Shown piece by piece: positions 9,234-13,624 of a stretch of 64,000 nucleotides of DNA. The first letter of the stretch is position 1, and each line of letters begins with the position of its first letter. A program made the translations under genes and the position numbers. This DNA is from Candidatus Auribacter fodinae (GTDB lineage Bacteria; Auribacterota; Auribacteria; Auribacterales; Auribacteraceae): assembly GCA_003599815.1 (NCBI GenBank), contig QZJZ01000094.1:1-64000 (forward strand). The letters run 5' to 3'. The notes under the pieces were generated by a model, which worked only from the letters and a program-made list of their open reading frames with translations, did no database searches and had not been told where the DNA came from.

Positions 9234-9917
9234 TTACTCTTTCCGTACCGGGATAATCAAAATCTGTCCCGGACGTATGATGTCCGAAATACTTTCCATC
9301 TTATTGGCGTTGGCGATGTCTTCCATAGTTACCCCGTAATTTTGAGCGATAATCCACAGATTCTCACCGCTTTTTACGGAATGGCGGACATATTCGGATG
9401 CATCACCAGATGATTCCATTACATCAACACCAGACGACGTTGAACTCTGCTCTACGGTGGGTTGAGGAGCGGCTTCACCGTAGACATCTTTTTCCACAGA
9501 CCTGATTCGTTTAATAATACGCTGGTTTTCTTTGAGAACTTCATCAAGAAGAACTTTAAGGCGTTTGGTCGTCTGAGCGTCCATATCATCAAGTCTCTTC
9601 GCAAGCTGATTGTTAGCCGCCTGAAGTTCGCTTAGCTGAATATTCAGGGTTTTAAGCTCATCAAGTTTTGAATATATGTACTTGTTGTTTTCGTTGACAT
9701 TATCGTTCATTTTGATGAGCAGATTACTGATTTCTTCGAGCCGGTTTTCTGTAGTAAGAGTTCTGTCCTGAATACGGTTCATCTCAGAGTTGATGTTTTG
9801 TTCCTGCTGGATCATATCTTCACGCAGGTCTTGCGTACAACCAGTCAGCAATATGGGGGCAAAAAGTCCGCATATTAATGTATAAACGACTGATGGAACT
9901 ATTGTTTTCAACAACAA
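9234..9917 (-). CDS. Coiled-coil lipoprotein with C-terminal LysM domain, last gene of the tol-pal cluster
   Basis: Lipobox LTGC, long heptad-like coiled coil, C-terminal HSVKSGENLWIIAQNYGVTMEDIANANKMESISDIIRPGQILIIP (LysM). Confidence 0.88.
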   Translation of the reverse strand: MLLKTIVPSVVYTLICGLFAPILLTGCTQDLREDMIQQEQNINSEMNRIQDRTLTTENRLEEISNLLIKMNDNVNENNKYIYSKLDELKTLNIQLSELQAANNQLAKRLDDMDAQTTKRLKVLLDEVLKENQRIIKRIRSVEKDVYGEAAPQPTVEQSSTSSGVDVMESSGDASEYVRHSVKSGENLWIIAQNYGVTMEDIANANKMESISDIIRPGQILIIPVRKE

Positions 9918-9932
9918 GCCTCCTTATTTTGC

Positions 9933-10439
9933 TTACTGGGCAAGTTTGAATTCAGCGCGGCGGTTTTCAGCCCAGGCGATTTCAGTATGCTGTGTGTTGC
10001 GCGGCTGTTCTTCACCATAACTGATGGTGAATAAACGGTCGGCAGGCACGCCTTGTTCATTGAGATACCGGCGTACGCTCAATGCTCTGCGTTCACCGAG
10101 CGCTAAGTTGTACTGTTCTGTACCACGTTCATCACAATGCCCTTCAATCCTGACCAATACTTTCGGGTGTGTTTTCATCCATTCTGCAACCTGATTCAGG
10201 CCAGCCTGCATATCCGCGCGAACATCAGATTTATCATAATCAAACAGTATCGGCTGGAAAATGTATTTGAATTCTTCTGGCGGATCAATGAAAGTGCCGG
10301 CAGGTATAGCGCTCAACGGTATATCGCCTTTAACTTTACCTTTGTCCCTGCATTCCGGTGACAGCATGCAGCACCCATTGAGCATTGTTACAACTACTAG
10401 AACTGATGACGCGGTGATGATTGCATTTGATAGACGCAT
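9933..10439 (-). CDS. pal: Peptidoglycan-associated lipoprotein Pal (OmpA-family)
   Basis: Lipobox LNGC; FDYDKSDVR, IEGHCDERGTEQYNLALGERRALSVRRYL, GEEQPRNTQHTEIAWAENRRAEF. Start ATG 10439 preferred (AGGAGG RBS) over ORF-track start 10556. Confidence 0.94.
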   Translation of the reverse strand: MRLSNAIITASSVLVVVTMLNGCCMLSPECRDKGKVKGDIPLSAIPAGTFIDPPEEFKYIFQPILFDYDKSDVRADMQAGLNQVAEWMKTHPKVLVRIEGHCDERGTEQYNLALGERRALSVRRYLNEQGVPADRLFTISYGEEQPRNTQHTEIAWAENRRAEFKLAQ

Positions 10440-10473
10440 GTATTCCTCCTTTTTTTTGCTTGTTATGTTAATG

Positions 10474-11787
10474 TTACTGTAATGAAGGTCCCCAATCCGG
10501 CAAACTGGAATTATTACTATCCGTCGTAACCCTGACGGGTTTTTCTTCACGAACATCCATAAAATATATATCCGATCGGTAGTTTTGTGTCAATGTATAT
10601 GATACATGAATACCATCCGGAGCCCATGTTGGGTGGTCTTCTGATTCCATAGATGTGGTTAAACGGCGGAAGAAACCGCTTGATGCGTCGATAATGCATA
10701 GTTCTGAGTTGCGCCCGTACAAAGAAGAATAAACAATTATATTAGAACCCTTGATGGGTGACCAGTCTGGAGAAGCATTATAATTACCCTGAAAGGTGAT
10801 TCGTTTTGGTGTGCCGCCCCGGTAATCGACAACATAAATCTGAGGTGTTCCACTGCGATCCGATACAAATGCCAGTGTATTGCTGTCAGGCGCCCATGTT
10901 GGAGATGTATCTACTGCCGGGCTGAATGTTACCCGCTGAATAACATTTCCCGAAAAATCAATGACATATATTTCCGGATTTCCGTTAAAACTGAGGGTCA
11001 GGGCTATCTTTGTGCCGTCAGGGGAGACGTCAGGTACTGAGTTTAGCCCGGGCCGTTTTGAGATTATCTGCATACTTCTTGTTCGAAAATTCTGCAGGTA
11101 GATAAAAGGATAGTTTTCAAAATAGCTGGAATAGATAATTCCCTCGCCATTTGGAAGCCAGTTTGGGTCAAGATTAAGCGAAGTATTGGATGTAACTTGA
11201 CGGACGTTATGCCCGTCGTAGTCCATCATGAAAATGTTTTTAGCCTTTCCATTTTGTTGTACAAAAGCGATCTGCGTGGTGGTAATGGATGGGCGGCCTC
11301 CAGAAACTTTTTCTATGATTTTAGCTGTTGCCTTATGCATCAAAGCCCGGGTTTCAGAGATTGGCCCGTTGACGACTACTGAAGTAAACTCACTGCGTGT
11401 CGCCATGTCGTAACAGAAAAGTTCTATGGCAAGTTCGGTGCCGCTCATGGTATAAAGCCCTTTTATAATCATTTCCGTACCGTAATCAAGCCAGAAATCG
11501 TAATCAGCGGATTTATAATTTTTCCCTTTGTCGAGAGCGGAGTCAGGGAGAGGTTCCTGCGGCCATAACTCGAAATAGCCGGCATGCTTCAAATCAAATT
11601 CCGCAACGGAATACAATTCGCGGGAAGCAACCACATTATTTGTCTCACTGAAAAAGGGCAATATGGTCACGCGAATTTTACGGTCTATTTTTTTCTCGAT
11701 AGTAATCTCTATTTCTTTCGCCGGAACCAAACTGTTTTCGCATGCCGCGGCTAAGAAAAGTATCAACAGAAGAAATGTTTTTTTCAT
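10474..11787 (-). CDS. tolB: TolB beta-propeller protein
   Basis: N-terminal TolB domain followed by repeated SPDGTKIA/APDSNTLAF/NPEIYVID propeller motifs; position between tolA and pal. Confidence 0.92.
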   Translation of the reverse strand: MKKTFLLLILFLAAACENSLVPAKEIEITIEKKIDRKIRVTILPFFSETNNVVASRELYSVAEFDLKHAGYFELWPQEPLPDSALDKGKNYKSADYDFWLDYGTEMIIKGLYTMSGTELAIELFCYDMATRSEFTSVVVNGPISETRALMHKATAKIIEKVSGGRPSITTTQIAFVQQNGKAKNIFMMDYDGHNVRQVTSNTSLNLDPNWLPNGEGIIYSSYFENYPFIYLQNFRTRSMQIISKRPGLNSVPDVSPDGTKIALTLSFNGNPEIYVIDFSGNVIQRVTFSPAVDTSPTWAPDSNTLAFVSDRSGTPQIYVVDYRGGTPKRITFQGNYNASPDWSPIKGSNIIVYSSLYGRNSELCIIDASSGFFRRLTTSMESEDHPTWAPDGIHVSYTLTQNYRSDIYFMDVREEKPVRVTTDSNNSSLPDWGPSLQ

Positions 11788-11802: not shown

Positions 11803-12536
11803 CTATTGTTGAGTATCAAAATTAATAATAATATCCAGCGACTCTTCGTGCAGGTCTGATGGAAAAGGAGGAAAAGGTTTCGAGTTATCAATCGCGTCAA
11901 TGATCGATTTTTTTAATAAAACGTTATCCGTATCACTTACGAATTCCATCTCCGACACCGTACCTGTATTCAGGATTCTTATTTTAATAGTTACGATGTC
12001 AATTTGTTCCTGTCCCCGAAGCGTACCGGGTATAGCCCATTGAGCATAAACACGTTTTTTTACCAACCCTGCATAATATAAGAGAACCGTTTGCGGCGCT
12101 TGGGTTGATGTTTTTTTTATTTCTTGAGGTACAGGCTCTTCAGGACGGGTTACTTTTTTTTTTCCAGATCATCCCATTGCTTTAATATATTATTTTCCAA
12201 ATTGGAATTAAGAGGTTCAGGCGGCGGCCGTTTAATTACCTTTTGTTCCACAAGAGGTTTTTCCGGCTCCGGTTCCTTTTCAGCCGCCTTTTCCTGTGTT
12301 TGCGGCTCTTTCTTGTCTGCCGGTTTTTCCTGTTCCTGAGGCTGTGGTGTGAATAGTTCTACTTCCTGAATTTTAATCGGTTCGCTTTTTTTCTGTTTCC
12401 ATAAAGGAAGCATGATAACCACAGCAGTGATAATAATTATGTGACAGCTTATAGATATGACCAGAAATTTTCTTTGTTTAAAAAGCACTAGCAGTCGTTG
12501 TTTAAAAAGTAATAATAATGAATCTAATTTGCTCAT
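11803..12536 (-). CDS. tolA: TolA/TonB-like energy-transducing protein, split in two frames at an A10 tract (reconstructed about 244 aa)
   Basis: Zero-frame ORF 12150-12536 (TM helix, Pro/Lys/Glu-rich linker) ends DLEKKK* at A10-G-TAA. The -1 frame continues without a stop as VTRPEEPVPQEIKKTSTQAPQTVLLYYAGLVKKRVYAQWAIPG... into ORF 11803-12066, which has a TolA/TonB-like C-terminal domain. Located between tolR and tolB. Confidence 0.8.
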
Positions 12537-12949
12537 TTTACCCGTTCCACACTGGTTGCAAGCCCCAGTTTTGTTATGCCTGCCTTCTGAATAGTATCCA
12601 GAACTTTAACTATAAATTCGTAAGCGAGCCCTTTGTCCGCCCTGAGAACTACTGGTAAATTAGGCACGCTTTCACGCAAAGATATCAATCGCTCTTCAAG
12701 TTGCGGTAATGTAACCGCGGTATTACCTATAAAAATTTTTTTATCTTCAGACAGGCTGATAGTTACTGATTCCTCATGCGCCATTGTCCGCGCTGAGGTT
12801 TCCGGTAATTTTACGGTAATACCTTGTTCAATAACAGGCGCTATCAGAATAAATATAATGAGCATCACCATGGTCACATCTACCAAGGGGGTAATGTTTA
12901 TATCATTTAACGCCTGAGATTTATAGAATTCGTCCCGTTGAGACAACAT
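12533..12949 (-). CDS. tolR: Biopolymer transport protein TolR/ExbD
   Basis: DINITPLVDVTMVMLIIFILIAP signature; overlaps tolA start. Confidence 0.94.
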   Translation of the reverse strand: MLSQRDEFYKSQALNDINITPLVDVTMVMLIIFILIAPVIEQGITVKLPETSARTMAHEESVTISLSEDKKIFIGNTAVTLPQLEERLISLRESVPNLPVVLRADKGLAYEFIVKVLDTIQKAGITKLGLATSVERVK

Positions 12950-13624
12950 TTATTCGTTGTGCCCTCTTTCAACCAGTGAAAGAAATTCTGTAGCGAAATT
13001 TTCCATATCAATCATGAGGTTCCTGATGGAATTCAACAGATAATTATACCCGACACCTGACGGTATAGCTACAAATAAACCTATAACGGTTGTTATCAGC
13101 GCTTCTGATATACCCGGCGCCACAGCATCGATACTGGCTGAACCCATTCGCCCCATATCGTAAAAAGCTATTAGCAAGCCGTATACCGTTCCGAGCAACC
13201 CCAATAGCGGACTGATGTTGGCCGATGTCGCCAGAATAATCATATTTCTCTCTAAAGTTTGAGCCTTTTGGGACATTATACGTTTCAAAGAAAGTTCCAG
13301 ATCGTTTTGCTGTGATTTCGTCAGAGATGTATATCGTGTGTCTGAAGAGGTGATTTTTCGAAGCTCTTTTATTCCGGTAGAAAATACCGCACTTAATAAA
13401 GAGGCATTTGTTTGGTTACTGTTTTGAAACGCTTTTTCCAGAGAGTTCACTGAACCGCGAAAGAAATCGAGAAACTCGCGTCCTTCACGATTTAGTTTTC
13501 TGAAAAAAATGAGTTTTTCAATAATAACCGACCAAGCGGTTATCGAGAGTATCAGCAGAATAATCATGATACCCTGTCCAATAGGGCCTGAACTTGTAAA
13601 TGAAGTGATTAGTGGATGGCTCAT
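12950..13624 (-). CDS. tolQ: TolQ/ExbB/MotA proton channel protein
   Basis: LATSANISPLLGLLGTVYGLLIAF and ALITTVIGLFVAIPSGVGYNYL motifs; upstream of tolR. Confidence 0.94.
   Translation of the reverse strand: MSHPLITSFTSSGPIGQGIMIILLILSITAWSVIIEKLIFFRKLNREGREFLDFFRGSVNSLEKAFQNSNQTNASLLSAVFSTGIKELRKITSSDTRYTSLTKSQQNDLELSLKRIMSQKAQTLERNMIILATSANISPLLGLLGTVYGLLIAFYDMGRMGSASIDAVAPGISEALITTVIGLFVAIPSGVGYNYLLNSIRNLMIDMENFATEFLSLVERGHNE

Follow-up and report, generated by a model that had tools for sequence, protein, structure and literature searches.

The DNA analysed here (hereafter the window) is a stretch of 64,000 nucleotides from Candidatus Auribacter fodinae, and it carries a tol-pal cluster in which one gene is divided between two reading frames. 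Our sample of the family consisted of three genomes, one per genus: the genome of the window (G000; 3.54 Mb) and two relatives (G001 and G002). The genes of the cluster and the features of the frame break are listed below.

12950 to 13624, minus strand: tolQ, MotA/TolQ/ExbB (PF01618)
12533 to 12949, minus strand: tolR, ExbD/TolR (PF02472)
12150 to 12536, minus strand: zero-frame open reading frame of tolA, 128 aa, inner-membrane anchor and charged/proline linker
12169 to 12171, minus strand: -1 frame TGA, whose first base lies 8 nt ahead of the tolA tract
12154 to 12163, minus strand: A10, the putative slippage tract of tolA, likewise A10 in G001 and G002
12153 to 12159, minus strand: zero-frame A_AAA_AAG, a heptamer of the dnaX type; G001 and G002 have A_AAA_AAC instead
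12150 to 12152, minus strand: zero-frame TAA, 1 nt past the tolA tract
11803 to 12153, minus strand: -1 part of tolA, 116 codons and a stop, encoding linker and TonB_2/TolA-like C-terminal domain
10474 to 11787, minus strand: tolB, TolB_N and beta propeller (TIGR02800, E 4e-97)
9933 to 10439, minus strand: pal (TIGR02802, above cut-off), start inferred at the ATG of a lipoprotein signal (MRLSNAI...LNGC)

The order of the genes, tolQ-tolR-tolA-tolB-pal followed by the gene of a LysM protein, identifies the split gene as tolA. Its architecture consists of a single N-terminal transmembrane segment with an S-x3-H motif and a C-terminal domain of the TonB/TolA fold, which is encoded by the -1 part. 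The motif reads SISCH in the N-terminal part and SxxxH is kept in the three genera (read by eye); we take S-x3-H to be the motif of TolA/TonB anchors. The C-terminal part matches TonB_2 (PF13103) with an E-value of 8e-12, above the cut-off, and the Pfam search gave no match for the N-terminal part. Against the model TIGR02794 (tolA_full), residues 154-241 of the fused TolA score 39.9 bits, which is under the curated cut-off of 59.45. The TolA of the window is a divergent TolA, named from its position and its architecture. As regards the neighbouring genes, the longest open reading frame of pal (9933-10556) overlaps tolB, and the lipoprotein signal points to the ATG near 10439 as the true start. 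The cluster ends with a gene (9234-9917) for a coiled-coil-like protein that has a LysM domain at its C-terminus; many bacteria carry cpoB/ybgF at this position.

The ATG of tolA overlaps the stop codon of tolR. At the junction, the minus strand reads ...CAA TGG GAT GAT CTG GAA AAA AAA AAG TAA CCC..., with the G at 12153 directly 3' of the A10. The -1 frame is open from the TGA at 12171-12169 to the stop at 11805-11803, and the zero frame contains many stops beyond the tract. Since the -1 TGA lies before the A10 and the zero-frame TAA just after it, the shift of frame is confined to a short interval. Joining both frames gives a fused product of 244 aa. The only matches to this fused TolA in the genome of the window were the two split halves, and no second copy was detected. 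The frame transition at the A-tract is real.

We then searched the two relatives with the fused TolA, and in both genomes the halves lie in different frames. The junction reads GAA AAA AAA AAC CTT CAG AAC CAG TAG in G001 and GAA AAA AAA AAC CTT CAA AAC CAA TAA in G002, where the contig ends within the C-terminal domain and another small contig carries the final residues. In the three genera, tolA is thus split at the same codon and at a tract of exactly A10, the C-terminal domain always continues in the -1 frame, and 1 or 13 nt separate the tract from the zero-frame stop. Both halves are constrained between the genera (dN 0.37-0.60, dS from 1.4 to saturated), and the most changeable codon positions are the third ones, as read in the zero frame before the tract and in the -1 frame after it. 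Synonymous sites near or at saturation, the dN values and the third-position changes in both halves indicate that tolA has long been translated in both frames, and such constraint across genera makes an assembly error or a recent pseudogene very unlikely. In the other families of the phylum, the aligned genomes have an uninterrupted tolA without a tract at this place. Searches of the whole phylum (44 genomes) revealed no further split tolA or recF, and a search of genome contigs for relatives with TolQ returned only G001, G002 and one unrelated Bacteroidota.

These results bear on an earlier note made from the window sequence. Its description of tolA as interrupted at the A-tract, with an immediate TAA and the C-terminal domain in the -1 frame, agrees with the sequence, the open reading frames and the PF13103 match. 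The two forms that it proposed, a short anchor of 128 aa and a full TolA of about 244 aa, would both follow from a frame transition that is now seen to be conserved in three genera. The note had named a homopolymer assembly error as the main alternative; two further genera, assembled independently, show the identical split, which leaves very little room for such an error. The note would have counted against its reading any relatives with an uninterrupted tolA and no A-rich tract; such genes occur in distant families but not in the closest two genera, which are split at A10.

The same kind of break was found in a second gene, recF. In two genera, an A10 divides recF, and the rest of the gene lies in the -1 frame (G000:C80:8141-8151, L052, L073, L087; G001:C14:95352-95362, L048), and the end of a dnaN-like reading frame precedes it in both genomes. 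The fused RecF products score about 325 bits, for an equivalog cut-off of 172. In the genome of the window, the split halves are the sole RecF matches and no second copy was detected. Read without slippage, the split recF encodes an N-terminal fragment that contains Walker A and lacks Walker B. In contrast, recF of G002 (L074) is a single open reading frame, and its tract at the same codons is an A9 in frame. The RecF tree joins G000 and G001 as sisters with moderate support (86/85), so the frame break may have been a single event. In addition, recF of G022, which belongs to another family, contains an in-frame A10 at the homologous position (L084:1022-1031), where slippage would instead yield a truncated product; this indicates that the lysine-rich site acquires A-runs repeatedly.

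To place these tracts in their genomic context, we counted long A-runs. A pattern search for runs of at least ten A found 4 in G000 (3.54 Mb) and 6 in G001; G002, which is richer in A, has 49. The exact counts of A8, A9 and runs of at least ten were 569:63:4 in G000 and 746:87:6 in G001. From A4 to A8 in the window, each added base keeps about 0.3-0.5 of the runs, and the later fall of this ratio to 0.11 and then 0.06 indicates that long A-runs are avoided, as described for many bacteria (PMC1088944). The four runs of at least ten in G000 comprise one intergenic run, one spacer between GGGAG and ATG, and the tracts of tolA and recF; the two A10s that lie within coding frames thus both break the frame. 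The spacer run (G000:C67:384-394, L049) is an A10 placed exactly between a GGGAG Shine-Dalgarno sequence and the ATG that starts a small protein of secreted appearance, and its length would set the initiation spacing. We also surveyed A9 and A10 runs for frame breaks, on retrieved stretches of sequence. Among the runs of at least nine checked in G000, breaks were found only at tolA, at recF and at the boundary of dxs and tlyA. We read the latter as an ordinary gene junction or a chance overlap rather than a split gene, and the apparent breaks at L050, L069 and L090 in the relatives likewise. Many genes of G000 carry in-frame A9 tracts without visible consequence, and G001 and G002 retain runs of 11-14. 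At one place near a contig end (G000:C1:233-284; L089, L091, L093), three A9 runs occur within 52 nt on one strand, all inside one open frame of 285 codons. Lysine is encoded by AAA at about 85% in these genes; an A-run at a Lys-Lys-Lys site alone is therefore not evidence of selection, and we set aside the synonymous retention of A's as an argument. That the two coding A10s are both frame-breaking, lie in conserved genes and are common to another genus is more than chance would produce. The tract, the change of frame, its conservation, the purifying constraint on both halves and the lack of any other detectable copy are all direct observations.

Taken together, the sequences indicate that full TolA in three genera and full RecF in two very probably rely on a polymerase or a ribosome slipping at A10. 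We consider it fairly probable that tolA of this family (three genera) is a slippage gene of the transcriptional kind, with RNA polymerase slipping at the A10, and that recF of two genera works by the same device. RNA polymerase would stutter at the tolA A10 and produce mRNAs of mixed tract length. An unslipped mRNA would encode the 128-aa membrane anchor and linker, ending at the stop beside the tract, and an mRNA with the downstream part in the -1 register (typically with one extra A) would encode the full 244-aa TolA, which carries the periplasmic TonB_2-like domain. We infer that slippage occurs, that it does so at transcription rather than at translation, and that the cell makes both products. 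Throughout the five split genes (tolA in three genera and recF in two), the tract is A10 and the remainder is in the -1 frame. The tract of ten, the uniform -1 polarity, which equals one added base, and a recF tract that is kept while the frame changes all favour transcriptional slippage; one-base insertions predominate among transcription errors in A/T runs (PMC5574713). Moreover, no ATG, GTG or TTG was found in the C-terminal frame of the five genes for at least about 25 codons past the tract, and the C-terminal part of TolA is without an anchor.

The main rival is programmed -1 ribosomal frameshifting of the dnaX type at A_AAA_AAG or A_AAA_AAC, which would produce full TolA from an unaltered mRNA and to which we give a clearly lesser, though real, chance. 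An in-frame slippery heptamer is present in all five split genes, A_AAA_AAG, A_AAA_AAA and A_AAA_AAC are ribosomal slip sites too, the direction is -1 throughout, and the zero-frame stop of tolA lies 1 or 13 nt past the tract. However, the 70 nt downstream of the five sites, in which we sought a hairpin, fold no better than shuffled sequences (z from -0.4 to +1.5), and Shine-Dalgarno-like AGGAG or GGAG is absent from the 20 nt upstream of the five tracts (read by eye). The earlier note had seen no strong stimulator of either kind at tolA, and this extends to all five sites. The heptamer ends with AAG in one genus but with AAC in the other two, so that A_AAA_AAG is not conserved. Frameshifting in E. 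coli dnaX depends on a sole tRNA-Lys (PMC5009743), whereas both tRNA-Lys(CUU) and tRNA-Lys(UUU) are present in G000, and tRNA-Lys(CUU) in G001; for Thermus, it has been suggested that the possession of two lysine tRNAs matters for its use of transcriptional slippage (PMC5009743). Thus, tolA of the window shares the heptamer and the -1 direction with E. coli dnaX, but it differs by the lack of a detected Shine-Dalgarno stimulator or hairpin, by an unconserved heptamer and by the presence of tRNA-Lys(CUU). The emphasis that the note had placed on the dnaX-type heptamer is not borne out for these reasons; of the two mechanisms that it had put forward, polymerase slippage on A10 fits better and dnaX-type frameshifting is less favoured.

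Explanations that dispense with slippage during expression were also considered. Reversible replication slippage (phase variation), in which tract length would switch tolA on and off and the assemblies would represent the off state, seems unlikely to us: an A10 is long enough for mutation by replication slippage and the recF tract differs among the genera (A10, A10, A9), but tolA has exactly A10 in all three genera despite saturated synonymous sites, an always-off consensus is improbable for a cell-envelope gene, and recF is not a typical contingency gene. Even less probable is a pseudogene, or a pair of separate proteins with an independently started C-terminal domain. Two open reading frames are indeed visible in tolA, and a C-terminal piece of 87 aa could begin at a TTG that lies about 30 codons inside the -1 part. 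Against this, both halves are under constraint, the genera share no start codon, the C-terminal piece would have no anchor, and the Walker A and Walker B halves of RecF would likewise be separated. The least credible cause is an error of assembly or homopolymer sequencing. All three genomes are fragmented drafts, but one would have to assume the same error at the same codon in three assemblies for tolA and in two for recF, no such break exists elsewhere among the A/T runs of at least nine checked in G000, and runs of 11-14 are intact in the assemblies of G001 and G002.

Poly-A slippage in bacterial genes is already known from dnaX, tssM, IS elements and endosymbiont genes. In dnaX of Thermus thermophilus (A9) and in the split dnaX of the Chlorobi type (A10), transcriptional slippage occurs at a tract within a conserved gene, which resembles tolA and recF (PMC1088944, PMC3711429), and two products are expected from mixed mRNAs, as we propose for tolA. 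The Chlorobi-type gene also consists of two open reading frames, like tolA (PMC3711429). The unslipped mRNA of Thermus dnaX encodes the long form, whereas that of tolA would encode the short one. A likeness in protein design exists with tssM1 of Citrobacter rodentium (A11) and tssM3 of Yersinia, where an inner-membrane protein obtains its periplasmic C-terminal domain only through slippage; as in tolA, the poly-A tract is without stimulators, and as in recF here, a relative has a similar tract in frame (PMC4256274). For tssM1 (A11), the frameshifting amounts to 20-25%, both forms are needed and their ratio matters (PMC4256274). However, tssM is a type VI secretion (T6SS) gene of cultivated enterobacteria with experimental proof, while tolA is a core cell-envelope gene and here a putative case. 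In Buchnera and Blochmannia, poly-A frameshifts in needed genes are rescued by slippage and constraint is retained, as in tolA (PMC3017870). These endosymbionts have reduced, AT-rich genomes whose genes contain >100 long A-tracts, whereas the genome of the window has 3.5 Mb, a GC content of 43.5% in the window, and only four A10 runs, of which two lie in genes with a broken frame. Our search of open-licence papers found no case of slippage or ribosomal frameshifting in tolA or recF, and tolA is not mentioned in the GeneTack survey or in the consulted part of a recoding review. The tolA and recF genes of this family thus appear to be new instances of A-tract slippage recoding.

A TolA that is anchored but lacks the C-terminal domain could occupy TolQR without reaching TolB/Pal, and the ratio of the two forms could tune the Tol-Pal machine, as for tssM1 (PMC4256274). 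It is conceivable, though on present indications doubtful, that slippage is programmed throughout the family, with selection keeping the A10s of tolA and recF and thereby setting the ratios of anchor-only to full TolA and of N-terminal fragment to full RecF; in that case, slippage would tune both the Tol-Pal machine and DNA repair. The break in tolA may just as well be tolerated, with slippage supplying enough product; the tolerance of frame breaks through slippage has been argued for Blochmannia (PMC3017870). Since the recF A10 is out of frame in two genera whereas the A9 is in frame in the third, selection on the tract and selection on the frame can be tested against each other. Automatic annotation will call tolA and recF broken or absent in this lineage. 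So far, dependence on slippage is best documented for IS elements, dnaX, genes of secretion systems and endosymbionts of insects. If our reading is right, one core gene of the cell envelope and one gene of DNA repair in a genome of ordinary size would depend on slippage for their full products.
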